Assembly (NCBI GenBank): GCA_017620615.1
Contig: JAGAUW010000002.1
Coordinates: forward strand, 1 to 64,000
Direction: 5' to 3'
Origin: Clostridia bacterium
Lineage (GTDB): Bacteria > Bacillota > Clostridia > Monoglobales > Monoglobaceae
Length of the DNA: 64,000 nucleotides
Shown piece by piece: positions 1 through 53,699 of this stretch. The notes under the pieces were generated by a model. The model ran no database searches. It saw nothing but the letters and a program-made list of their open reading frames with translations, and was not told the origin of the DNA. Positions within the stretch are counted from its first letter, which is position 1; each line of letters starts with the position of its first letter. The translations under genes were made by a program, and so were the position numbers.

Positions 1-115
1 ATTTCCCATAGCGTAAGCTAGTAAGACCCCACGTAGACTATGTGGTTGATAGGTCGGAGGTGTAAGTGCGGTAACGTATTTAGCTGACCGATACTAATAG
101 GTCGAGGGCTTGACC
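1..115 (+). rRNA. 23S ribosomal RNA, 3' end (partial)
   Basis: The first ~115 bases match the conserved 3' end of bacterial 23S rRNA, including the stretch around ACCGATACTAATAGGTCGAG and the closing GGGCTTGACC. The gene is cut by the window edge. The exact 3' end (about 115) is inferred from family convention. The 5S gene follows after about 90 bases, with no tRNA between them. Confidence 0.95.
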
Positions 116-206
116 TAAATAGATTATGGAGTAAGCCAAAACTCTTCTTCGTTCAGTTTTTAAGAACACGAAAAAGAGTCAACGCACCAATGGTGCTTGA
201 CATACA

Positions 207-322
207 TTCGGTGGCAATAGCAAGAAGGTCACACCTGTTCCCATTCCGAACACAGTAGTTAAGCTTCTTAGCGCTGATGATACTTGGTGGGCAACCGCCC
301 GGGAAAGTAAGACGTCGCCGGA
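207..322 (+). rRNA. 5S ribosomal RNA
   Basis: The segment has the 5S hallmarks: CCCATTCCGAACAC near the middle, TTAAGC, and GCGCTGATGATACT further on. Its ends (TTCGGTGGC and GTCGCCGGA) pair to form helix I. Its length of 116 nt is normal. It is the last gene of the rRNA operon and is followed at once by an intrinsic terminator. Confidence 0.95.
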
Positions 323-330
323 ACGCACGA

Positions 331-359
331 CAGACACTCATTTGAGTGTCTGTTTTTTT
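331..359 (+). terminator. Intrinsic terminator of the rRNA operon
   Basis: A perfect stem (CAGACACTCA pairing with TGAGTGTCTG) is followed by seven T residues, immediately downstream of 5S rRNA. The 94 bases from here to the next reading frame hold nothing I recognise. Confidence 0.93.
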
Positions 360-453
360 GTGCGTTACGGTTGCCTGCCAATTATGTATCATCAGCGCTA
401 ACTCGCAAGAATGTTTTCAATCGGGAGAACCGTCCCCCTGATTGCACCCCTGA

Positions 454-1338
454 TTGCAAAACACCACAGAAAATGCACAGGAGGGTAAAAAAAGCATTGC
501 AGGGACAAGACTTTCGGAGCTTGTTGAGAAATACGGTGCTATCCCACGCGGTGAAAAACCCCACAGGGATATACAGGTTCCAAAGAAAACCGCAAAGGAT
601 AAAAAGGTATCTCAGACTGTTCGAACAATTCTTGAAACAAAGGCGACACCCGATGAAGCTCTGCCGACTATTGAGAAGATGGTTGAGGAGGGTACTTTCT
701 CTTATGATGTTTATACGGACAAGCAAGCCATAAACGATGCTGATTCTTACATAAAAGAGTATGGTTGGGATAAAAGTCTTATGGATTGGTTTAGTGCTGT
801 GGAAAAAGGTGTGGTATCTAAAGAACATACGGCAATAGGTTGGGCATTATACAACAATGCCGCAAACATTGCTGCGACCACAACATCGGAAACAGAGAGA
901 ACAACTGCAATCAATACATCCCTCAACATTCTTGATGCTATGGTAAGACACCAGCGAAGTGCCGCACAGGCGTTGCAGGCTACACGGATACTTAAAAAGC
1001 TCTCGCCTGAGACTCAATTATATGGTGTGCAAAAAAGCATACAAGCACTTCGTAAGGAGCTGGTCGACAAATATGGAGATAAAGCGCCGAACCTTAAAAT
1101 TGATGAAAGCCTTGCTGAGCAGTATTTAAAAGCTGAAACTCAGGAAGAACGAGAAGCAATAGAAAAGGAAATATACAAAGATATTGGCAGACAGATGCAC
1201 GAAACCTGGTATAAAATGTCTGCAATGCTTCAGGGTGGACTTGATATATCGAACATTATGGTATACTTTCCTCAAAATAGAAGTAGGTTGAAATTTTTTA
1301 ATACCGCTCATTGCTTTTTTTTGTTTTATGGTGTATAA
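454..1338 (+). pseudogene. Remnant of a large mobile-element (phage/ICE polyvalent-type) protein
   Basis: The open frame (294 codons) begins at a TTG directly after an in-frame TGA and has no ribosome-binding site. The protein is hydrophilic and helix-rich, with a charged N-terminus followed by helices that end near residue 265 (HETWYKMSAM). I recall similar helices from the very large multi-domain proteins of Clostridial phages and integrative elements, upstream of membrane or MuF-like parts; this is family recollection, not a search result. After residue ~265 the sequence turns into a phenylalanine-rich tail, as expected past a deletion point. Both ends therefore look lost, and I read it as a decayed fragment inserted behind the rRNA operon. 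It could still be a short expressed protein. Confidence 0.5.
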
Positions 1339-1343
1339 TAACT

Positions 1344-1372
1344 TTGACAAATTTTGTTCTTTAACATATAAC
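1344..1372 (+). promoter_or_regulatory. Sigma-A promoter, TTGACA-17-TATAAC
   Basis: The -35 TTGACA (1344-1349) and -10 TATAAC (1367-1372) are separated by 17 bases. It lies just after the mobile-element remnant and about 12 bases before a strong GGAGG. It would drive the 24-codon frame at 1392 and probably the metallophosphoesterase at 1577, which has no better promoter of its own. Confidence 0.75.
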
Positions 1373-1391
1373 ACTTTACGGAGGAATTTAT

Positions 1392-1466
1392 ATGGGGGTA
1401 CACAGATTTTCAGTTATTGTCAACTTAAATTGGTTGGTGATTTTATTGAAAATCATGTGGCTATGA
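1392..1466 (+). CDS. Possible 24-residue peptide or start of a decayed gene
   Basis: An ATG sits 8 bases after GGAGG and 20 bases after a near-consensus -10, so initiation signals are good. The frame stops after 24 codons. The +2 frame continues from the same place to a stop at 1487-1489 and looks more protein-like (ending VAMMCFGAGK), which suggests a frameshifted and truncated gene. I do not recognise the product. The 110 bases from 1467 to the next start hold nothing else I recognise. Confidence 0.3.
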   Translation: MGVHRFSVIVNLNWLVILLKIMWL

Positions 1467-1576
1467 TGTGTTTTGGGGCGGGGAAATAAGTATAAGGCCT
1501 GCATTGGAAGAGGTATTCTTATGGATTAAAAACTTTAATTAGGTTGAAGGATATAAAAATATTTTCGAGGTAAAGA

Positions 1577-2434
1577 ATGAGAATAAGGAAAAAGCATGTG
1601 GTTTTGCTCTCTCTATTGGTGTTGATATTGCTTTTGAGTGTTTGGATTATAAAAGGCAATACTGATATTGTGCTTACTGAAATTTCTGTGGTATCAGAGA
1701 ATTTACCTGAGGGTTTTGACAAATTCAGGATAGTTCAGATTTCTGATTTGCACAATTCGAGATATGTAAAAAACAACGAAAAGGTAGTCAATCTTATCAA
1801 AAATGCGGATGCTGACATAATTGTTATTACCGGGGATATGATAGATTCGCGGCGGCTTGATATGGAAATGGCAGTGAGCTTTGCTGAAAAGCTTATGGAA
1901 ATTGCCCCGACATTTTATTCGAACGGAAATCACGAAAGCAGAATAGAGGAATACCCTGAGTTTAAGGAACGGCTCAGTGGCATTGGTATAACGGTTCTTG
2001 AGGATGAAAACGTTAAAATCACATCAGGCGGCGATGATATAACCTTGATAGGAATGATTGACCCTGCGTTTTATATGAAAGAAACCGACAAAAAACGAAA
2101 AGAAAAAGTGAATGTGCAGCTTTCCCGAATAATTCCTGATGATACAAACTATAAAATTTTACTTTCTCATCGTCCTGAATTGTTTGATGAGTATGTTAAA
2201 CACAATATAGATTTGGTGTTTTCGGGGCATGCTCACGGTGGTCAAGTTGTTCTTCCAAAGTTTGGCGGTGTATATGCCCCAGGGGAAGGTTTTTTCCCAA
2301 AGTATTGTATGGGTATTCATACCAAGAGAAATACCAATATGATCGTGAGTCGAGGTGTCGGAGACAGTGGCTTTCGATTCAGGATAAACAATAAGCCGGA
2401 AATCATTGTTGCAGAGCTTATAAAGAAAAAATAA
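1577..2434 (+). CDS. Membrane-anchored calcineurin-like metallophosphoesterase
   Basis: 285 residues. An N-terminal membrane anchor (about residues 8-25, preceded by RIRKK) places the catalytic domain outside the cytoplasm. The metallophosphoesterase motifs are in order: ISDLHN, TGDMID, GNHES, a later SHRPE histidine, and GHAHGGQ near the C-terminus. All expected metal ligands are therefore present. This is the YkuE/YaeI-type branch, which typically acts on phosphodiesters or lipid-linked substrates; the substrate here cannot be read from sequence. The start at ATG 1577 follows GAGGTAAAG. It stands alone, facing the hydrogenase-maturation operon tail to tail across a shared terminator. Confidence 0.85.
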   Translation: MRIRKKHVVLLSLLVLILLLSVWIIKGNTDIVLTEISVVSENLPEGFDKFRIVQISDLHNSRYVKNNEKVVNLIKNADADIIVITGDMIDSRRLDMEMAVSFAEKLMEIAPTFYSNGNHESRIEEYPEFKERLSGIGITVLEDENVKITSGGDDITLIGMIDPAFYMKETDKKRKEKVNVQLSRIIPDDTNYKILLSHRPELFDEYVKHNIDLVFSGHAHGGQVVLPKFGGVYAPGEGFFPKYCMGIHTKRNTNMIVSRGVGDSGFRFRINNKPEIIVAELIKKK

Positions 2435-2439
2435 TAACA

Positions 2440-2467
2440 AAAAGCCATCCTGTCTGGATGGCTTTTT
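2440..2467. terminator. Bidirectional intrinsic terminator
   Basis: AAAAGCCATCC pairs with GGATGGCTTTT around a TGTCT loop. There is a T-run on the plus side and, read on the minus strand, one on the other side. It lies between the converging phosphoesterase and hydrogenase-maturation genes and probably ends both transcripts. Confidence 0.88.
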
Positions 2468-2482
2468 GAGCTTTAAAGAATT

Positions 2483-2782
2483 TTAGAATTCAAAGTCAAT
2501 GCATTTGCGACTTTCCATAACAGAACGCACAAAGGTGGCAACTTCAACGTGCTTGGGGTTTGTTTGGTAGCCAGCCAGCGATGCTTCGTCCACGAATGTG
2601 CTGTCAAGCATAAGGTCAGCATTGGATGATTCCATTGTGCTGGAATAGACTTTTATTTCGGTGAGCCCCTCAATTTGACCAAGAAGCCCCTCAAGCCCCG
2701 CTTTGATTTTTTCAGCGGCTGAAAGCTTTTCGTGCTCAGCCATTTCTGCTTTGAAATTCCAAAGAATAATGTGTTTTACCAT
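2483..2782 (-). CDS. Dabb (stress-responsive alpha/beta barrel) domain protein
   Basis: 99 residues that fit one Dabb domain: the N-terminal MVKHIILWNFK strand, a helix (AAEKIKAGLEGLLGQIEGL), a strand with VYSS, then LDSTFVDEASLAGYQ and the conserved NPKHVEVATFV. Dabb proteins are small dimeric ferredoxin-like barrels with no single agreed function. It is last in the operon behind hydG, 22 bases downstream with its own AAAGGAA site. Co-transcription with hydE-hydG is clear from spacing. A role in hydrogenase maturation is only guilt by association. Confidence 0.85.
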   Translation of the reverse strand: MVKHIILWNFKAEMAEHEKLSAAEKIKAGLEGLLGQIEGLTEIKVYSSTMESSNADLMLDSTFVDEASLAGYQTNPKHVEVATFVRSVMESRKCIDFEF

Positions 2783-2804
2783 TGTCTAAATTCCTTTCTT
2801 TTTG

Positions 2805-4229
2805 TTAAAATCTAAAATCTCTTTTTCCGTTTTCGATTTCTTCAATGTATTTTTTAGCAAGTTCCCGAGTCTTTTCGTTGGGAACTTTTTCTATTTCTTT
2901 CTTTATCACTGCGATGCCGTTTTTAACTGTTTCAGGGGATGCATAATCCATAAGGTATTCCTTAAGGGTAATGAGTGCATTGGGCTGACAGCAGTTTGCA
3001 ATTTGTCCTGACTTTATCAGTGACATAAATCGGTCACCTGTTCTGCCCTCACGATAACAAGCGGTACAGAAACTGGGGATATAACCAAGCTCCAAAAGCC
3101 AGTTCACAACACTATCAAGAGGACGAGTATCGCTGATGTCAAATTGGGCGGAGTTTTCTGTTTCGTCCTCATCGTGAATATATCCGCCCACAGTGGTTTT
3201 TGAACCGCCGCTTATCTGAGATACACCAAGTTTTAAAACTCTTTCACGGGATGCTTTTGATTCACGGGTGGAGATAATCATACCAGTATATGGAACAGCT
3301 ATACGGATAATCGCAACAATCTTTTCAAAAATTTCATCAGAAATAGCATTTGTGAAAGAATCTTTGTCTATACCCTCAGCAGGACAAATTCGTGGAACGC
3401 TTATGGTATGAGGCCCAACGCCTTTTGCTGCCTCCAGATGCTCTGCGTGCATAAGAAGACCCACAAAATCATAACGGTACATCTCTAGCCCGAATAGAAC
3501 GCCGATACCCACATCGTCAATGCCACCATCCATAGCTCTGTCCATAGCCTCGGTGTGATATGCATAATCGTGTTTGGGGCCTGTTGGATGAAGCATTTCA
3601 TAATTTTCTTTGTGATAGGTCTCCTGAAAGAGAATGTATGTGCCAATGCCTGCATCCTTAAGCTTTCGATAGTTTTCAACGGTTGTTGCCGCAATATTCA
3701 CGTTTACACGGCGGATGGCGCCGTTTTTGTGCTTGATGCCGTAAATAGTATTTATGCTTTCAAGAACGTATTCGATTGGGTTATTTACAGGGTCTTCACC
3801 AAGCTCGATGGCGAGACGCTTGTGTCCCATATCCTGAAGCGCAATAACCTCTGCCTTTATTTCTTCCTGAGTAAGCTTTTTTCGTGTTATGCACTTGTTT
3901 CCGTGATGATAGGGACAATAGGTACATCCGTTCACACAGTAATTTGAAAGGTAGAGGGGCGCAAACATAACAATTCTGTTGCCGTAAAGTTTTTCTTTTA
4001 TTCTGATAGCCAGGGCTTTTATTTGTTCAATAGCTTCAGGAATATCACATTCAAGGAGCACTGCTGCCTCGCGGTGAGAAAGACCTTTGCAGTCTTCAGC
4101 GCGCTTTATCAAAGAAAAGACAAGGTCGCGATTTGATTTGTTTTGTTTTGCATATTCAATGGTATCAAGTATTTCCTGATGGTTGATAAATTCTTCAGCA
4201 ACCGAAGATTTTGGGTTATAAACTGCCAT
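2805..4229 (-). CDS. hydG: [FeFe]-hydrogenase maturase HydG (radical SAM tyrosine lyase)
   Basis: HydG cleaves tyrosine to p-cresol and dehydroglycine, and delivers CO and cyanide on iron for the H-cluster. The 474-residue length is typical. The radical-SAM CX3CX2C motif is at C98, C102 and C105. The second, C-terminal cluster motif CX2CX22C, diagnostic for HydG over its relative ThiH, is at C388, C391 and C414. The ATG follows AAAGGAGAA by 7 bases. It lies 23 bases behind hydE in the same operon. No hydF and no hydrogenase structural gene lie in this window, so they must be elsewhere if the pathway is complete. Confidence 0.95.
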   Translation of the reverse strand: MAVYNPKSSVAEEFINHQEILDTIEYAKQNKSNRDLVFSLIKRAEDCKGLSHREAAVLLECDIPEAIEQIKALAIRIKEKLYGNRIVMFAPLYLSNYCVNGCTYCPYHHGNKCITRKKLTQEEIKAEVIALQDMGHKRLAIELGEDPVNNPIEYVLESINTIYGIKHKNGAIRRVNVNIAATTVENYRKLKDAGIGTYILFQETYHKENYEMLHPTGPKHDYAYHTEAMDRAMDGGIDDVGIGVLFGLEMYRYDFVGLLMHAEHLEAAKGVGPHTISVPRICPAEGIDKDSFTNAISDEIFEKIVAIIRIAVPYTGMIISTRESKASRERVLKLGVSQISGGSKTTVGGYIHDEDETENSAQFDISDTRPLDSVVNWLLELGYIPSFCTACYREGRTGDRFMSLIKSGQIANCCQPNALITLKEYLMDYASPETVKNGIAVIKKEIEKVPNEKTRELAKKYIEEIENGKRDFRF

Positions 4230-4252
4230 AATAAATTCTCCTTTATGTCAAA

Positions 4253-5299
4253 TTATTTTTCTGGGTGGTCACCTCGGGCGGTGACTATTTCATAGCCGAT
4301 AGCATCAATACGTTTTTTTAGAAGCTTAAGACCCTCTGCAGCTTCTTCATTGGTTGAGATTTTGCCGTTATAAAGCATATATTTTTGTCTGTCCTTTATG
4401 GGTGAAAGGTTGGGCATAACAACGTTTGCACCCGACAAAATTCCCATTTCACGACCCCTTTTGTGAATTGTTCCAAGAGCAGTGGTGGAGGGAAGAAGTA
4501 CATTTTTGAGCATTATTCTCACAAGTGCGAGAAGTAAGAGAGTCAATTCAAGACTTCCTTGGGGCTTATTCCAAAATGGTGTGTCTTTGTGTGGGATAAA
4601 AGGCCCGATACCCACCATCTCAGGGTTTAGCTCGCGGATAAAAAGCAAATCTTCGGCCAAGGTGTCAAAAGTCTGATGAGGTGAACCTACCATAAAACCA
4701 CAACCTGTCTGAAAACCAATTTCTTTGAGGTCGAAAAGGCATTTTTTTCTGTTTTCAAGGGTTTGACCTTTTGGATGGAGCATACTGTAATGCTCACTGT
4801 TTGCGGTTTCGTGGCGAAGAAGATAGCGGTCTGCACCTGCATCAAAAAGTCTTTGATAACTTTCCTTTGATTTTTCGCCTATTGACAGCGTAACTGCACA
4901 GTCGGGATAATTTTCTTTAATGCTGTGGATAATGTCACACATCAAATCATCATCAAAGAGGGAGTCTTCACCGCCTTGAAGAACAAAGGTGCGAAAACCC
5001 AAGGGGTAACCTGTTTCACAGCAGGAAAGAATATCGTCTTTTGAAAGGCGGTATCTCTCTGCGCTTTTGTTTTCAGAACGAAGACCGCAGTAGTAACAAT
5101 TCTGCTTACATATATTTGTGAATTCAATGAGACCACGGATGTATATTTTGTTTCCAAAATATTTTGAGGCAATTTCTCTTGCAAGTTTTCGTGCAAACTC
5201 CAAATCGTTTTCGGTGAATGTTGAAAGTAATTGTACAAATTCACAGTGCGTGAGGGTACCCGCAGATTCAAGTTTCTTTATAAGTTCGAGATTATTCAC
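4253..5299 (-). CDS. hydE: [FeFe]-hydrogenase maturase HydE (radical SAM)
   Basis: HydE is the radical-SAM enzyme that processes the HydG product during assembly of the H-cluster di-iron subcluster. I chose GTG at 5299 (348 residues) because GGGAGG lies 5 bases upstream; a longer frame opens at 5332 but overlaps that site. The CX3CX2C motif falls at C64, C68 and C71, close to characterised HydE proteins. Other family signs are RYRLS, LQGGED, RHETAN and the C-terminal NVVMPNLSP. It sits 20 bases behind the TM1266-type gene and 23 bases before hydG. Confidence 0.93.
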   Translation of the reverse strand: MNNLELIKKLESAGTLTHCEFVQLLSTFTENDLEFARKLAREIASKYFGNKIYIRGLIEFTNICKQNCYYCGLRSENKSAERYRLSKDDILSCCETGYPLGFRTFVLQGGEDSLFDDDLMCDIIHSIKENYPDCAVTLSIGEKSKESYQRLFDAGADRYLLRHETANSEHYSMLHPKGQTLENRKKCLFDLKEIGFQTGCGFMVGSPHQTFDTLAEDLLFIRELNPEMVGIGPFIPHKDTPFWNKPQGSLELTLLLLALVRIMLKNVLLPSTTALGTIHKRGREMGILSGANVVMPNLSPIKDRQKYMLYNGKISTNEEAAEGLKLLKKRIDAIGYEIVTARGDHPEK

Positions 5300-5319
5300 A
5301 TTAACCTCCCCATAGAATG

Positions 5320-5562
5320 CTATTTTGAACAAACTGTCTTGACGCTTACATCGGCAATCATACCAAGCTTTCCTGAAAGAGCGCCTATAACATCGGTTGA
5401 AGCATCAAGAACAATGCTCATCACCGATAGGTCTTTTTCACGGTAGGGAATACCCATTCTGCCAACGATATAATCGCTGTAATCGTGAAGAATACGGTTG
5501 ATTTCTTCGGATGAGTTAAGGTTGTTGATAATAATACCAATAATTGCAATTTTAGTTTCCAT
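5320..5562 (-). CDS. TM1266-family putative regulator of the iron-only hydrogenase system
   Basis: 80 residues from ATG 5562, chosen because GGAGG lies 7 bases upstream (the frame itself opens earlier, at 5622). The sequence METKIAIIGIII, the EEINRILHDYSDYIVGRMGIP stretch and the final SGKLGMIADVSVKTVCSK are typical of the TM1266 family. Members have an ACT-like fold resembling the NikR C-terminal domain and are routinely encoded beside hydE/hydG; a regulatory role is proposed, not proven. It is first in the operon, directly after the leader hairpin. That position would suit a protein that senses the pathway's state. Confidence 0.85.
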   Translation of the reverse strand: METKIAIIGIIINNLNSSEEINRILHDYSDYIVGRMGIPYREKDLSVMSIVLDASTDVIGALSGKLGMIADVSVKTVCSK

Positions 5563-5583
5563 TTTAAAGCCTCCAAATAAAAA

Positions 5584-5609
5584 TACTCCTTGCCGAGAGG
5601 CAAAGAGTA
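5584..5609 (-). terminator. Intrinsic terminator hairpin in the leader of the hyd operon
   Basis: On the minus strand, TACTCTTTGCC (5609-5599) pairs with GGCAAGGAGTA (5594-5584) around a TCTC loop, then runs into ATTTTTATTT. It sits about 20 bases upstream of the first gene's start, inside the transcript, so it would stop transcription before the operon unless prevented. Confidence 0.8.
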
Positions 5610-5610
5610 C

Positions 5611-5679
5611 AAAAATATACAAAATATAAACATTGTTCTTTGCCTGAAACTCAGAAATTCATCCTTGTTCTCAGCAAAA
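5611..5679 (-). promoter_or_regulatory. Candidate antiterminator/sensor region of the hyd-operon leader
   Basis: In the leader RNA, GGCAAAGA (5644-5637) is complementary to TCTTTGCC, the 5' arm of the terminator, so pairing there would break the terminator. The same strand also contains CTGAGA (5674-5669), which can pair with TTTCAG (5649-5644) just before that segment and compete for it. This gives three mutually exclusive pairings, as in riboswitches and protein-controlled attenuators. I do not recognise a known riboswitch class here. The pairings are seen; the switching is inferred. Confidence 0.5.
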
Positions 5680-5681
5680 TA

Positions 5682-5710
5682 ATTGTATCATAAATCAGTG
5701 CTTATGTCAA
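5682..5710 (-). promoter_or_regulatory. Sigma-A promoter of the hydrogenase-maturation operon
   Basis: On the minus strand, TTGACA (5710-5705) and TACAAT (5687-5682) are 17 bases apart. Predicted transcription starts near 5675, giving a leader of about 113 nt before the first start codon. The leader carries the hairpins described at 5584-5679. Confidence 0.85.
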
Positions 5711-5719
5711 CATCACAAA

Positions 5720-8083
5720 TTATTGAATTTTTGATAACTTGAGGGCACTATCTTCACTTGAAATCAAAACACGGCTCCCCTCAAAAATTTCACCGCTTAT
5801 GAACATCTGAGCCAAAGCATCTTCAATGTGTCTTTCGATATATCTGCGCATAGGACGAGCACCGTACTGAACATTATAGCCGTTTTTGACAATGAGTTCT
5901 TTTGCATCAAGGGTTACTTCAATTGAAATTCCTTTTTCCAGAAGACCCTTGTTAAGCTCCGCGAGCATAAGGTCAACGATTTTCAAAAGGTCATCCTTTG
6001 AAAGCTCGTCAAAAACAATGATTTCATCAATTCGGTTTAAAAATTCAGGTCTGAACAGCTGTTTAAGGGCTTTTTCTGCCTTGAGTCTATTTGATACATT
6101 GCTGCTTGCGCCAAAGCCTGCGACACCGCCCAAGGTGTCGCTGCCCGCGTTTGAAGTCATGACGATTATGGTGTTCTCAAAAGAAACAGTTTTTCCGTGG
6201 CTGTCGGTTATGCGACCGTCGTCCAGAATTTGAAGTAGAATATTGAAAACATCGGGATGAGCCTTTTCGATTTCGTCAAAAAGGATAACAGAGTAGGGGT
6301 GACGTCTTATTTTTTCGGTGAGCTGACCTGCGTCGTCATAACCTACATATCCGGGGGGCGAGCCGATAAGTCTTGAAACAGTGTGTTTTTCCATGAATTC
6401 TGACATATCAAAGCGGATAAGAGCGTCTTCTGTGTCGAAGACTTCTTTTGCAATCTGTTTTACAAGCTCGGTTTTTCCCACACCTGTGGGACCTACAAAG
6501 ATGAATGAAGCGGGACGGCGTTTGAGACTGAGCCCTGCACGCTTGCGGCGGATACCACGGGAAACAGCCGATACAGCCTCATCCTGACCGATAAGATTCT
6601 TGTGAAGACGTTCTTCAAGGTTTACAAGACGGTTGGTTTCAAATTCGGTAATGTTTTTTACGGGGATTTTTGTCCATCCCTCAATAACAGTCGCCAAATC
6701 GTCAGGGGTGAGATAAACATCGCTGATTGTCTTTTCAATATCCTCAATCTCGGCAAGGAGCTGACACTCACGGCTTTTGAGCTCGGCAAGTTTTTCATAG
6801 CTTTTGTCTGATGCTGCAGCTTCGTCGGCATTTTGTGTTTCAAGCTCTGTCTGCATGGATTTGACTTCCTCAAGTTGTGATTTAAGTTTTGCAAGTTCTG
6901 TGAGAGCTACATTATCAAGGTTCGCCTTTGATGCCGCTTCGTCAATTACGTCAATGGCTTTGTCGGGGAGAAATCTGTCTGTAATATAACGTTTTGACAG
7001 GACTGTTGCGCAACGGATAATGTCATCCGTTATTTTTACTTTGTGATAATCTTCATAGTAGCTCTTTATACCACGAAGCATATCGATTGTTTCCTCAATT
7101 GATGGCTCTTCAACAATGACGGACTGAAATCTGCGCTCCAAAGCGCTGTCTTTTTCAATGTGCTTGCGGTATTCTTCCAAGGTTGTCGCGCCAATAATCT
7201 GAATTTCACCACGGGAGAGTGCAGGTTTTAAAATGTTTCCTGCATTCATAGCCCCCTCAGCATCACCTGCTTTGGTGAGAATATGCACCTCATCAATAAC
7301 AAGAATGATGTTTCCAAGGGATTTTACCTCACTGATAAGACTTTTGAGGCGGGACTCAAACTGACCGCGGAATTGTGTTCCTGCAACCATAGCTGCCATA
7401 TCAAGAAGATAAATTTCATAGCCCAAAAGCTTTGCGGGAACATTCCCATCGGCAATTCTCAAAGCAAGACCCTCTGCAATGGCGGTTTTTCCCACACCAG
7501 GCTCACCGATTAAGACGGGGTTATTCTTTGTGCGGCGGTTGAGAATTTGGGTTATGCGGTTCATTTCAACGTCTCTGCCAATGATACGGTCAATTTCGCC
7601 AAGCTTCGCTTTTTTGGTGAGATTTGTGCCGTACATATCCAGGAATTTTCGACCCTTATCTTTTTTCTTTTTATCATTTTTCGCGTCTTTTGATGATGTG
7701 TTTTGTGATGCTGCACTGTTTTCGTCAGCAGGCTTTCCGCCGAACATATTGGACAAGAAAGAGAGGGGTGACTTTTTCATTGCACCGCCGTTTTCACTGT
7801 CGGCAAAATCTTCGCCTTCCAGAAATTCGCCAGAAAGCATTTGCATAGGGTCAAATTCTTCGCCTGAGCCAACCATTTCTTCCATCATTTTCATTGTTTC
7901 ACTGTTCATATTGTCAAACTCTTCGGGGCTTATCCCAAGACTCTTTATCATATTTGAAACAGCGTCAATATTCAGTTCCTTGGCACACGAAAGGCAATAA
8001 CCCTCGTTTACCTGTTTGCCATCGAGTTCCATCTTGGTAACGAAAACCACGGCCATATTTTTTTTGCATCTTGTACAGAGCAT
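5720..8083 (-). CDS. clpE: ClpE-type Clp ATPase with N-terminal zinc finger
   Basis: 787 residues. A zinc finger opens the protein (C3, C6, C30, C33) and replaces the Clp-N repeat domain of ClpC. A low-complexity acidic/lysine linker (about 60-145) follows, then two AAA+ modules with Walker A GEPGVGKT (193-200) and GPTGVGKT (about 530-537). A short middle coiled coil (LKSQLEEVKSMQTELE) lies between them. This arrangement is that of ClpE, an unfoldase that feeds ClpP and resolves aggregates under stress. ClpP and ClpX are encoded at the far end of this window. Transcribed alone, divergently from ileS. I see no CtsR or CIRCE box in its promoter. Confidence 0.88.
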   Translation of the reverse strand: MLCTRCKKNMAVVFVTKMELDGKQVNEGYCLSCAKELNIDAVSNMIKSLGISPEEFDNMNSETMKMMEEMVGSGEEFDPMQMLSGEFLEGEDFADSENGGAMKKSPLSFLSNMFGGKPADENSAASQNTSSKDAKNDKKKKDKGRKFLDMYGTNLTKKAKLGEIDRIIGRDVEMNRITQILNRRTKNNPVLIGEPGVGKTAIAEGLALRIADGNVPAKLLGYEIYLLDMAAMVAGTQFRGQFESRLKSLISEVKSLGNIILVIDEVHILTKAGDAEGAMNAGNILKPALSRGEIQIIGATTLEEYRKHIEKDSALERRFQSVIVEEPSIEETIDMLRGIKSYYEDYHKVKITDDIIRCATVLSKRYITDRFLPDKAIDVIDEAASKANLDNVALTELAKLKSQLEEVKSMQTELETQNADEAAASDKSYEKLAELKSRECQLLAEIEDIEKTISDVYLTPDDLATVIEGWTKIPVKNITEFETNRLVNLEERLHKNLIGQDEAVSAVSRGIRRKRAGLSLKRRPASFIFVGPTGVGKTELVKQIAKEVFDTEDALIRFDMSEFMEKHTVSRLIGSPPGYVGYDDAGQLTEKIRRHPYSVILFDEIEKAHPDVFNILLQILDDGRITDSHGKTVSFENTIIVMTSNAGSDTLGGVAGFGASSNVSNRLKAEKALKQLFRPEFLNRIDEIIVFDELSKDDLLKIVDLMLAELNKGLLEKGISIEVTLDAKELIVKNGYNVQYGARPMRRYIERHIEDALAQMFISGEIFEGSRVLISSEDSALKLSKIQ

Positions 8084-8108
8084 ATTTTTCCCTCCGTCAT
8101 ATATTTAC

Positions 8109-8122
8109 GGTGCAAAAGCACC
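8109..8122 (-). promoter_or_regulatory. Short hairpin in the clpE 5' leader
   Basis: GGTGC and GCACC flank a four-base loop, midway between the clpE promoter and its GGAGGG site. It could be a small mRNA-stability or repressor element; nothing more can be said. Confidence 0.35.
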
Positions 8123-8143
8123 TGAAAATTCAAAGCATAAAAC

Positions 8144-8172
8144 AGTATAGCACAAAACATGGGGTATTTCAA
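8144..8172 (-). promoter_or_regulatory. Sigma-A promoter of clpE
   Basis: On the minus strand, TTGAAA (8172-8167) and TATACT (8149-8144) are 17 bases apart, about 60 bases upstream of the clpE ATG. Confidence 0.8.
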
Positions 8173-8234
8173 TTAAAAATTTATTAACAATATGAAAAAA
8201 ATTACCAAAAAATCAATGAATTTCGGCAAATCCC

Positions 8235-8263
8235 TTTACAAATGCGAAAATTTCTTGTAAAAT
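8235..8263 (+). promoter_or_regulatory. Sigma-A promoter of ileS
   Basis: TTTACA (8235-8240) and TAAAAT (8258-8263) are 17 bases apart; an overlapping TATAAT occurs at 8263-8268. The remaining leader is only about 50 nt, too short for the T-box leader that often controls ileS in Firmicutes. Confidence 0.65.
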
Positions 8264-8319
8264 ATAATGGTTAATGACTTGGTTTATTATTCATTTTATA
8301 TACTTAGGAGGCATTTATT

Positions 8320-11300
8320 ATGTACGACAAGGTGTCAACCGATTTATCCTTTGTGGACAGAGAGAAAGAAATTGTCAAGTTTTGGAAGGATAATGACATA
8401 TTCAAAAAAAGTATAAAGAACCGCGAAAGTGGCGAAATCTATACATTTTTTGATGGTCCCCCCACGGCGAACGGAAAGCCGCATATCGGTCACGTTCTTA
8501 CCCGTGTTATCAAGGACCTTATTCCCCGTTATCGCACAATGAAAGGCTTTAGCGTTCAGAGAAAAGCGGGCTGGGACACTCACGGTCTTCCTGTTGAACT
8601 TGAGGTTGAAAAACAGCTTGGCATTAGCGGAAAGCCACAGATTGAAAATTACGGAATTGAAGACTTTGTGAAAAAATGTAAGGACAGCGTTTTCACCTAC
8701 CAGAGCGAGTGGGAGGAAATGAGTGACCGTGTTGGCTTCTGGGCTGATATGGAAAATCCCTATGTTACCTATCATAACGACTACATCGAGTCTGTTTGGT
8801 GGGCACTCAAGACCATATGGGACAAAAAGCTCCTTTACAAGGGTCACAAGATTATGCCATATTGCCCCCGTTGTGGAACTTCCCTTTCAAGCCACGAGGT
8901 TGCTCAGGGATATAAAGACGTGAAGGAAGCATCTCTCATTGCAAAATTCATCGTAAAGGGCAAGACAAGCGAATATATACTGGCTTGGACCACAACACCC
9001 TGGACACTGCCCTCAAACGTGGCGCTTTGTGTTAATCCTCACGAAACTTATGTAAAGGTAAAGGTGGCAGAAGAAACCTTTATTCTGGCAGAAGCGCTTC
9101 TTGAAACAGTTATCAAGGACGAATATGAGGTAATCGAAAAGTACATTGGTACAGACCTCTGTGGTCTTGAATATGAGCCTCTTTATGACTTTGCAACACT
9201 CGACAAAAAAGGTCATTTCATCGTTGCTGACAACTATGTTACAATGAGCGATGGTACAGGTATCGTTCATATCGCACCCGCATTTGGTGAAGATGACTCA
9301 CGTGTGGGCAAAGAAAACGACCTGCCTTTTGTTAATCTTGTTAATCCTCAGGGTAACTTTGTGGACTCAGTTACACCCTGGAAAGGTATGTTCGTAAAAG
9401 ACGTTGACAAGCTTGTTATCCGTGACCTTAAGGAAAGAAATCAGCTCTTTGAAGTTATTAACTTTGAACACAGCTATCCGTTCTGCTGGAGATGTGACAC
9501 ACCGCTTCTTTATTACGCTTGTGACACATGGTTCATCAAGATGTCGGCTGTCCGCGACAGACTCCTTGCCAACAACGAAACAGTAAACTGGATGCCTGAC
9601 AACATCAAGCACGGCAGATTTGGGAACTTCCTCGAAAATGTAATCGACTGGGGTCTCTCACGTTCAAGATACTGGGGAACACCGCTTCCTATCTGGACCT
9701 GTGAATGCGGTCATCACGAATGCATTGGCTCAATCGCAGAGCTCAAAGAAAAAGGAATTGACGTGCCAGAAGATATCGAACTTCACAAGCCATATGTTGA
9801 CAACGTATTTTTAAAATGCGAAAAGTGTGGCGGACAGATGAAGAGAGTTTCAGACGTTATTGACTGCTGGTTTGACTCCGGCTCAATGCCCTTTGCACAA
9901 TGGCACTATCCTTTTGAAAACAAGGAAATGTTTGACAATAATTTCCCTGCTGACTTTATCAGTGAAGCTATAGACCAGACAAGAGGCTGGTTCTATACAC
10001 TTATTGCCATTTCAACACTGCTCTTTGACAAGTCACCATATAAGAATGTTATCGTGCTTGGTCACGTTCAGGACAGAGATGGACGCAAGATGTCAAAGCA
10101 TATAGGCAATGTTGTAAACCCTTGGGATGTCCTCAATAAGCAGGGCTCAGATGCGGTAAGATGGTATTTCTATTCAAACAGTGCTCCGTGGCTTCCCAAC
10201 CGTTTCCATGACGAAGCCGTTTCAGAATCACAGAGAAAGTTCCTCGGCACTCTTTGGAACACCTATGCTTTCTACGTTCTTTATGCAGACATTGACAAGT
10301 TCAATCCAACAGAGCACACGCTTGATGCATCAAAGCTTACACTTCTTGACAAGTGGATTCTTTCAAAGCTCAACTTTGTAATTAGAACTGTTGACGAATA
10401 TCTCGAAAATTATAAGATTACCGAGGCTACACGTGTTATTCAGGAATTCACCGACGAGCTTTCAAACTGGTATGTAAGACGCTCAAGAGAAAGATTCTGG
10501 GCAAGCGAGCTTACTGATGATAAGATTTCTGCATATATGACACTTTATACAGTTCTTACTGAATTTTCAAAGGTTTGTGCACCATTCATCCCGTTTATGA
10601 CAGAAATGATTTATCAGAACCTTGTTCTCAACGTGGATAAAACTGCACCTGAAAGTGTTCACCTTTGTGATTTCCCGAAAGCAAATGCTGAATTTGACTT
10701 TGCGGACATCGAGGCTGAGATGGATGCAGTAAGAAAAATTGTTATCCTTGGTCGTGCTTGCCGAAACGCAGCAAACATCAAGAACAGACAGCCTATCGCA
10801 AAAATCTTTGTTCAGACAAATGAGAAGATAAACGAGGTTTATAAGAATATCGTTCTTGACGAACTCAACGTAAAAGAACTTGAAATTACAGCTGATGCAA
10901 GTGCATTCATTTCGTACAACTTCAAGCCACAGCTCAAGACAATGGGACCAAAGTACGGCAAAATTGTAAGAGCAATCTTTGAAGAAGTTAACAAAATGAA
11001 TGGCGCCGAGGTTATGGCAACTCTCAACAATGGCGAGATGGTAAAACTCACTGTTGAGGGCACAGCTGTTGAATTTGGCATTGATGACGTTTTGGTTGAA
11101 ACACTTCAAAAAGACGGCTTTGTATCAGACAGCGATGCAAGTTACACGGTTGTTCTTGATACAAACCTCACTGACGAGCTCATTGAAGAGGGCTTTGTAA
11201 GAGAAATCTTAAGCAAAATCCAGACAATGAGAAAAGACAGCGGATTTGAAGTTCAGGACAACATTCGCGTGACATATTGCGGAAGTGAAAAGATTGATGC

Positions 11301-47303: not shown

Positions 47304-47328
47304 CAAGCAAGGGATTTTGTGTTATCAT
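47300..47328 (+). promoter_or_regulatory. Sigma-A promoter of rplU-rpmA
   Basis: TTGACA (47300-47305) and TATCAT (47323-47328) are 17 bases apart. The -35 overlaps the stop codon of the DUF2344 gene. Confidence 0.85.
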
Positions 47329-47334
47329 ATTACG

Positions 47335-47416
47335 GTAACCGCGCGAGAAGGGTTTTAAAAGTCTGATTTTCAGCACCCCATTTGGCGAGTCTTGGGTAAT
47401 AGGAGGGATTACGATT
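47335..47416 (+). ncRNA. Probable L21 leader (autoregulatory 5' UTR of rplU)
   Basis: The 80-nt leader between the promoter and the rplU start is GC-richer than its surroundings and starts GGTAACCGCGCG. It contains short complementary segments (for example ACCC with GGGT near its end) ahead of GGAGGG. Firmicutes commonly carry a structured L21 leader here that lets the ribosomal protein limit its own synthesis. I place it by position and composition; I have not matched the consensus fold. Confidence 0.5.
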
Positions 47417-51515: not shown

Positions 51516-53699
51516 GTGGCTAAAAATCCAATTATTGAATATCAGAACATAACGGACACGCTCCAGAATAACTATATGCCATATGCTATGAGCGTTATTA
51601 TTTCCCGTGCTATCCCGGAAATTGACGGCTTCAAGCCCTCTCACAGAAAGCTTCTTTATACTATGTATAAAATGAGGCTTTTAAACGGCGGACGCACAAA
51701 ATCTGCAAATGTAGTGGGACAGACGATGAAGCTCAATCCCCACGGCGATGCGGCTATTTATGAAACAATGGTGCGTCTTACCGAGGGGCATCAGGCACTT
51801 CTTCACCCACTTGTTGATTCAAAGGGCAACTTTGGTCGTCAGTATTCAAGGGATATGGCATATGCTGCAGCACGTTATACCGAGGTAAAGCTTTCAAAAA
51901 TATGCAGTGAAATTTTTGGTGATATTGATAAAGAAACAGTTGACTTGGTTGACAACTATGACGGAACACTCAAAGAACCTACACTTTTGCCCGTTACGTT
52001 CCCCAATATTTTGGTGAACCCAAATCAGGGTATTGCTGTCGGTATGGCGTCAAATATCTGCAGTTTCAACCTTTCTGAAATATGCGAAGCAACAATCAAA
52101 CTTATGAAAAACCCCGATTCAGACATTATGGATGTTTTGCTTGCACCTGACTTTTCTACTGGTGGTGAGGTTCTGCTTAACAAGGAAGAAATGCGTGAGA
52201 TTTACCGCACGGGCAGGGGCTCTTTCAAAATCCGTGCTAAATATGAATATGACAAAAAGGCACATTGTATTGATATTAAAGAAATACCATATACCACCAC
52301 AGTAGAGGCTATAATTGAAAAAATAATTGAGCTTATTAAAGCTGGAAAGCTGAAAGAAGTTTCGGATATTCGTGATGAAACCGACCTTGGTGGCCTTAAA
52401 ATTACTATTGATGTAAAAAAAGGCACTGATCCTGAAAAGCTCATGGCGAAGCTCTTTAAGATGACACCTCTTCAGGACAGCTTTGGTTGTAACTTTAATA
52501 TTCTTGTTGAGGGCTCACCTATGGTGCTTGGTGTAACTGACATAATCTGTGAATGGTTACGTTTCAGAAAGAATTGTATAAAACGTGGCATCAGATATGA
52601 TATAGAAAAGAAGAGTGCCAAACTTCATCTTCTTGAGGGACTTGAAAAAATTCTTCTTGATATAGATAAGGCAATAAAAATAGTTCGTGAAACCGAAGAA
52701 GATGCTCAAGTTATACCAAATCTTATGTCGGGTTTTGGTATTGATGAGGTTCAGGCAGAATTTGTTGCTGAAATCAAGCTTCGAAACCTCAATAAAGAGT
52801 ATATTTTGAAGCGTACGGCAGAAATTAAATCTCTTACCGAAGAAATTGCAGAGCTTCGTGATACCCTTGAGAAAAACAAGAAAATTGAAAAGATTATTGA
52901 AAAGGAACTCAAGGAAATTTCGAAAAAGTTTGGTACACCAAGAAAAAGTTCTATTGTTTCTGATAGCGAAATAGAAGTTGAAATAGAAGAAAAAATTGAG
53001 AATTATCCTGTGGTTATTTTCTGTACGAAAGATGGTTATCTCAAGAAAATTTCGCATTTGTCCCTGCGATTCAGCGGAGAACAAAAGGTGAAAGAAAATG
53101 ACGAGATAATCAAGTGTGTTGACACCGACAACACGGCAGAAATTTTGGTATTTTCCACATCTGGCGAGGTTTACAAAACAAAAGCCCACGAAATCCCTGA
53201 CAGCAAGGCAAGCCTTTTGGGTGAATATCTGCCCAATCTTCTTTCAATGGGCGAGGGTGAACGTGTTGCAGGGGTGGTTGTTACCAAGGAATATAAGGGT
53301 AACATTCTTTTCTGTTTTGAAAACGGTAAAATAGCAAAGGTAGATATAAAAGGCTATGAAACCAAGCAAAACAGAAAGAAGCTCACAAATGCATATTCTA
53401 TGGTTTCACCTCTTGTAAAGGTTATGTTTTTGCCCGAAGATACAGAGCTTGTTGCAATCAGTAATATAGGAAAGGCACTAATCTTCAATTCTGCACAAAT
53501 TGCCCTTAAAACCACAAAAAATTCTCAGGGTGTTAATGTTATGCTTCCCACCAAGAATAGTAAACTTTCGGATGTACGGCTTATTTCAGAAACGGGAATA
53601 AAGGATGTTAAGCATTACAGAACAAAAAATATTCCGGCAAAGGGTGCGGTTATAAGACCTGAGGATGCTGAAACTCCTCAGCTTACACTTTTTGAATAA
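51516..53699 (+). CDS. Type IIA topoisomerase A subunit, divergent GyrA/ParC paralogue
   Basis: 727 residues from GTG 51516. Opening MPYAMSVIISRAIPEIDGFKPSHRKLLYTMY gives the winged-helix region. The active-site tyrosine is in AAARYTEVKLS. The quinolone-binding stretch reads NPHGDAAIYETMVR: the usual Ser and Asp/Glu anchor positions are Ala and Glu. A long coiled coil (about 350-490) and a shortened beta-pinwheel C-terminal domain (500-727) follow. The canonical GyrA box of gyrase (QxRGGxG) is not visible, so it is more ParC-like. It would work with the B subunit encoded upstream. Confidence 0.88.
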   Translation: MAKNPIIEYQNITDTLQNNYMPYAMSVIISRAIPEIDGFKPSHRKLLYTMYKMRLLNGGRTKSANVVGQTMKLNPHGDAAIYETMVRLTEGHQALLHPLVDSKGNFGRQYSRDMAYAAARYTEVKLSKICSEIFGDIDKETVDLVDNYDGTLKEPTLLPVTFPNILVNPNQGIAVGMASNICSFNLSEICEATIKLMKNPDSDIMDVLLAPDFSTGGEVLLNKEEMREIYRTGRGSFKIRAKYEYDKKAHCIDIKEIPYTTTVEAIIEKIIELIKAGKLKEVSDIRDETDLGGLKITIDVKKGTDPEKLMAKLFKMTPLQDSFGCNFNILVEGSPMVLGVTDIICEWLRFRKNCIKRGIRYDIEKKSAKLHLLEGLEKILLDIDKAIKIVRETEEDAQVIPNLMSGFGIDEVQAEFVAEIKLRNLNKEYILKRTAEIKSLTEEIAELRDTLEKNKKIEKIIEKELKEISKKFGTPRKSSIVSDSEIEVEIEEKIENYPVVIFCTKDGYLKKISHLSLRFSGEQKVKENDEIIKCVDTDNTAEILVFSTSGEVYKTKAHEIPDSKASLLGEYLPNLLSMGEGERVAGVVVTKEYKGNILFCFENGKIAKVDIKGYETKQNRKKLTNAYSMVSPLVKVMFLPEDTELVAISNIGKALIFNSAQIALKTTKNSQGVNVMLPTKNSKLSDVRLISETGIKDVKHYRTKNIPAKGAVIRPEDAETPQLTLFE

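Follow-up and report, generated by a model that had tools for sequence, protein, structure and literature searches.

A conserved two-fold symmetric hairpin in the leaders of [FeFe]-hydrogenase maturation genes of Clostridia is probably part of a transcription attenuator

The control of H-cluster assembly for [FeFe]-hydrogenases in bacteria is, to our knowledge, largely unknown, and TM1266 proteins are annotated as putative regulators for which we know of no target. An operon that begins with a TM1266 gene and continues with two H-cluster maturase genes raises the question of what its leader does and what signal it reads. The operon lies in the window, which is the whole 64-kb stretch of DNA analysed here and is part of a 1.26-Mb Clostridia bacterium genome (82% complete), whose relatives in the same genus are ruminant gut MAGs. 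A ClpA/B/C-like gene (8083-5720, minus strand) precedes the operon, which is formed on the same strand by the TM1266-family putative regulator gene (5320-5562; TIGR03959, 114 bits; NikR C-terminal-domain fold) and by the genes of the radical SAM maturases HydE (4256-5299; TIGR03956, 567 bits) and HydG (2805-4229; TIGR03955, 913 bits). A small ORF (2483-2782, minus strand; beginning MVKHIILWNFKAEM), located immediately 3' of hydG and ahead of a strong terminator (2468-2438), may be a fourth gene of the operon. Elsewhere in the window, an Rfam L21 ribosomal-protein leader is found at 47327-47402 on the plus strand (41.4 bits). The original prediction described the hyd leader as an attenuator or riboswitch; it does prove to be a conserved leader of the attenuator type, but the upstream pairing register differs from the predicted one and the same class of element also precedes hydG, hydE, hydF and aspA. 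Judged from sequence, the leader is very probably a transcription attenuator whose first fold, an anti-antiterminator hairpin, belongs to a conserved and uncatalogued class, whatever the identity of its sensor.

The sigma-A type promoter of the operon (TTGACA-17-TACAAT; 5682-5710, minus strand) matches the consensus at 11 of 12 positions and has a TG before the -10 box, so the earlier description of it as near-perfect holds; it is among the top three of 19 promoter-like sites in positions 1-9000, a region for which shuffles give 19.5 sites. Transcription is predicted to start near G5675. The intrinsic terminator hairpin (5583-5610, minus strand) has 12 pairs, one more than the 11 first described, and is followed by a T-run at 5582-5575, so that, as in an attenuator, a terminator with its U-run is placed between the promoter and the first gene. 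It ends 20 nt upstream of the ATG at 5562 and the leader is about 113 nt long, both as predicted. Folding of the full leader gives -29 kcal/mol against -21.0 in shuffles (z -2.8; one of 200 shuffles equals it), and in an alignment of five species the terminator hairpin has two-sided changes at 5 of its 12 pairs.

The 5' end of the transcript forms a hairpin (5678-5639, minus strand; P0-GA/CA-P1-AA/GA-P2), the putative anti-antiterminator, in which three short stems are separated by two GA-containing internal loops. In P0, UUUGCU (5673-5678) pairs with GGCAAA (5644-5639); in P1, GAAC (5667-5670) pairs with GUUU (5650-5647); and in P2 (5653-5664), GGA (5664-5662) pairs with UCU (5655-5653). Each strand of the hairpin reads CUGA-N4-(R)A(A/G)G, which makes it a near-perfect dyad. 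With a start at G5675, only about positions 5675-5673 of the P0 5' strand are transcribed and P0 has 3-4 pairs, so the hairpin would depend on a stabilising partner.

This hairpin was examined by pairing within the genus, by a shape descriptor and by folding. The TM1266 gene is present in 7 of the 9 genomes of the genus, and all 7 leaders have the same shape. In their alignment, which was made without structure, the P0-P1-P2 register is 91% paired and three pairs have two-sided changes from A-U to G-C, one in P2 and two among the four pairs of P1, while controls with the partner shifted by one to three columns are at most 55% paired. The covariation check on related leaders that had been proposed thus finds compensatory changes across all seven operon-carrying members of the genus, and in the wider consensus as well. 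The upstream pairing first proposed, 5674-5669 with 5649-5644, has 81% of its positions paired in the genus, none of them with a two-sided change, and was dropped as a conserved register in favour of P0-P1-P2. The shape descriptor matches 7 of 7 genus leaders and was composed after these had been seen, which leaves as its informative part the absence of matches in 2000 dinucleotide shuffles of each leader and the single match, the leader hairpin itself, on both strands of the 64-kb window. A first, simpler descriptor missed or misplaced the genus because P0 closes with U-G there and CA, GA or GG occurs as the 3' loop. The genus covariance model, R3, scores the window hairpin at 57.6 bits, a sequence that belongs to its own training set. 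A presumed second copy in the same genome, suggested by a 21-nt DNA match (G000:C17:57072), is located within a coding gene and was attributed to chance.

The switching segment is the octamer GGCAAAGA (5644-5637, minus strand), which includes the P0 3' strand and is also the 5' strand of the antiterminator. It is perfectly complementary to UCUUUGCC (5606-5599), the antiterminator 3' strand and part of the terminator 5' arm, which bears out the earlier claim of complementarity and gives the leader another property of attenuators, a conserved upstream segment that can pair with the terminator 5' arm. Across five species every antiterminator pair is retained (100% paired), one of them through a two-sided change. 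Folding of the growing window transcript starts with the hairpin (-12.6 kcal/mol), passes to the antiterminator at nt 85, with the arm out (-19.6 kcal/mol), and ends with the hairpin together with the terminator (-31.0 kcal/mol). The mutually exclusive pairings of the original prediction are recovered as alternating folds, with the upstream pairing in the P0-P1-P2 register, and in this form they are conserved in the genus.

A common plan, CU-GA-P1-RA-P2-GA-P1'-RA-AG, was recognised in leaders of TM1266 genes, both those of the family and those of 80 named loci located by way of HydE. The first covariance model, R1, was built from 14 seeds chosen partly by shape (alignment A1), and a second model, R2, from 55 matches in the searched loci. 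In the 55-sequence alignment two-sided changes occur at 11 of 13 pairs and the covariation is 0.468, against 0.178 in shuffles and at most 0.137 in slid versions, values that are biased towards the structure because the alignment was fitted to it. Since A3 is structure-fitted and the seeds of A1 were picked partly by shape, cleaner tests come from A4 and A6, although these include few sequences. The motif CUGA-N4-RAAG is near-invariant on both strands of the hairpin in 53 distinct sequences. An intrinsic terminator follows within 180 nt in 87 of the 126 distinct elements, where shuffled downstream regions lead to an expectation of 2.4. Pairing between the P0 3' strand and the terminator arm of the same leader averages -9.3 kcal/mol, compared with -6.8 (sd 0.23) when arms are swapped between species. 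The -10 box is often just a few bases ahead of the element, which places the element at the extreme 5' end of the transcript. Upstream of TM1266, hairpins also occur as tandem pairs (L074, L075, L080, L085, L098, L106, L123, L126 and L140), which were spotted by eye and in some cases confirmed by a model, as for the first copy of L085.

The window copy appears to be a divergent variant of this class, an assignment based on hairpin shape, the dyad, gene synteny and the layout of the switch. The R2 model does not recognise it (best score 6.9 bits in 5200-5900, with filters off), and R3 performs weakly on the wider class, with 2 of its 6 non-self matches on known elements at E 5 and 9; R3 matches in three further genomes (G139, G206 and G316) are outside hyd context and were rejected, as were R1 matches at window positions 52956 and 62147, which are without support and ascribed to chance. 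In the window genus, CUGA-N4-NAGG or a close match is read in both half-sites, a departure from the class that the two halves share. As R2 and R3 link the genus to the class weakly or not at all, it is a dyad descriptor for both forms that bridges them: it has 21 matches in 1.16 Mb on both strands, at least 17 of which are in leaders. The window copy has the features of the class: the dyad CUGA-N4-NARG is present on both strands with N4 paired, stands close to the 5' end of the leader of TM1266-hydE-hydG and leads into the antiterminator and terminator.

A search with R2 of 391 Clostridia genomes drawn evenly (cut-off E 0.1), some of which had supplied training sequences (e.g. G015, G020, G022, G034 and G045), gave 86 matches in 79 genomes. 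The first recognised downstream gene is TM1266 in 46 of the 86, hydG in 14, hydE in 6 and hydF in 2, so that 68 matches precede these four genes. This association with genes, like the hairpin and its conservation, was computed directly. Most of the other 18 matches are within coding regions, and about a dozen such matches (L171, L180, L213, L214, L222-L224 and others) were set aside as false positives; one of the 18 is at a contig end. In L234 (5100-7803), an element of 40.2 bits is followed by aspA, which encodes an aspartate ammonia-lyase, and by hydF in one apparent operon. Operon links between aspA and hyd genes have been reported, and ammonia-lyases have a role in making the dithiomethylamine ligand (PMC11736057); the arrangement in L234 gives independent support for an aspartate ammonia-lyase in H-cluster assembly. 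Another locus (L233; G117:C59:1-9428) has an element at 8525-8561 on the minus strand (27.1 bits), with a terminator, ahead of an operon in which a NifH-like gene is followed by two more genes (one resembling a nitrogenase component), an ABC transporter of the iron/heme type and, at the end, a second hydE; this is an unusual combination of a nitrogenase-like operon and an H-cluster maturase. In L235, an element of 33.9 bits (about 10771-10807, minus strand) is upstream of an SsuA-like ABC transporter, which could be a hint at the signal or could be chance.

These observations suggest how the leader may work. Soon after the start of transcription, the RNA would fold into the P0-P1-P2 hairpin with its two GA loops. 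A bound regulator that holds this hairpin would keep the octamer locked in P0, the terminator would form and the maturation operon would be OFF. With the hairpin free, the octamer would pair with the emerging terminator arm and block the terminator, and transcription would read through the antiterminated leader into TM1266-hydE-hydG (ON). The hairpin overlaps the ribosome-binding site in some hydG and hydF elements (e.g. L161, L174, L193 and L208), where it probably acts on translation too, and a held hairpin would be OFF there as well. While the terminator, the antiterminator and their complementarity are computed features, we infer the OFF direction from the terminator-arm pairing, the folding order of the transcript and the ribosome-binding-site overlap; a bound regulator, and the candidates for it, are likewise deduced.

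TM1266 is a good candidate for this regulator, and a TM1266 protein acting with a small signal ranks above direct sensing of a small molecule. With or without a metal or metabolite, TM1266 would bind the dyad and stabilise the hairpin in the manner of PyrR, exerting feedback on its own operon, a reading to which we give a little less than an even chance. The predicted structure of the window protein (pLDDT 95.6) matches Thermotoga maritima TM1266 (2nzc; Z 15.8) and the NikR regulatory domain (Z ~13), and a DNA-binding domain is absent from it by predicted structure and structure comparison. A sensor fold that lacks a DNA-binding part, encoded behind a two-fold symmetric RNA, suggests that TM1266 reads RNA, although the protein is not obviously basic. 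TM1266 is also the commonest first gene behind the element, and hyd-context elements are found in 65 of 206 genomes with both HydE and TM1266 against 1 of 52 with HydE and no TM1266 (Fisher p 1.4e-6), an association confounded by the frequent position of TM1266 as the first gene after the RNA and by the non-independence of related genomes; limited to elements before other genes, the co-occurrence is merely suggestive. Genomes with TM1266 alone have such elements in 3 of 29 cases, and those with neither gene in 0 of 104. Against this reading, R2 detects no element in 141 of the 206 genomes with both genes, and TM1266 was not found in G423 (behind L117) or in G064, which have two elements and one element, respectively, and may be incomplete. 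Taken further, TM1266 might be an RNA-binding attenuation protein that reads the symmetric hairpin and feeds the state of H-cluster assembly, as metal, precursor or ammonia supply, to all maturation genes of Clostridia, a broader proposal that we hold tentatively.

A small-molecule riboswitch is possible at a lower rank. The hairpin would bind an H-cluster assembly signal directly and switch OFF by the same logic without a protein, and the signal could be a precursor, an ammonia donor, or iron or an Fe-S related species, possibly with one ligand for each GA half-site. The strong sequence conservation of the two internal loops, the tandem copies in several leaders, the tie to the whole pathway including aspA-hydF, and the two elements in a genome where TM1266 was not found are all in line with direct binding, but an aptamer formed by a 4-bp stem between two 2x2 loops is small, the dyad fits a symmetric protein and the RNA tracks genomes that have TM1266.

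It is improbable that the leader is a passive terminator which sets a low basal level, with an incidental structure and a hairpin that is no switch: the single-sequence stability is modest, as such a reading would have it, but the hairpin is conserved, the antiterminators are matched to their own terminators and the occurrence is gene-specific. Leader-peptide attenuation or a divergent member of a known Rfam class (PyrR site or T-box) is very improbable, since no conserved short ORF was noticed in a non-systematic inspection, and since the PyrR model (RF00515), which reaches 29.4 bits (E 0.04) on the leader, stays below its gathering score of 54, the alignment lacks the conserved ARUCCAGAGAGGYU binding loop and the operon is not a pyr operon. 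The relatives' elements have no plausible Rfam match, and a sub-threshold T-box match (RF00230) in L105 sits 2.4 kb upstream of the element there. With no gathering-level match to Rfam release 15 in the window leader or on the relatives' elements, and no description of the element in the main texts of the open-licence literature searched, the leader agrees with its first characterisation as undescribed and without a known riboswitch consensus.

The attenuator reading makes the conserved RNA before maturation genes of many Clostridia a concrete candidate target for TM1266. The RNA element predicts a regulon of hydE, hydF, hydG, TM1266 and aspA, ties aspA independently to the H-cluster pathway, and makes the question of the sensor testable with purified parts.

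Among known systems, the PyrR-controlled pyr leaders have an upstream anti-antiterminator hairpin which, when stabilised, lets the downstream terminator form (PMC7430163). The hyd leader resembles the PyrR attenuators of Bacillus in this logic, in the presence of several copies per operon and in having the regulator gene first, while it differs in sequence, fold and genes, and its regulator is putative. It is like riboswitch OFF-switches that act through a terminator in the conservation of its 5' domain, the choice between antiterminator and terminator, the pathway-specific occurrence and the tandem copies of some leaders, but its core is unusually small and two-fold symmetric, and matches no Rfam class. 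TM1266 shares with the nickel regulator NikR the C-terminal metal-sensing fold, and lacks the ribbon-helix-helix DNA-binding domain of that protein. The first gene of the window operon is an ordinary member of the TM1266 family (TIGR03959; PDB 2NZC), and it is the conserved RNA ahead of it that is new. The attenuator logic is thus already known, and what is added here is the element with its dyad and gene set.
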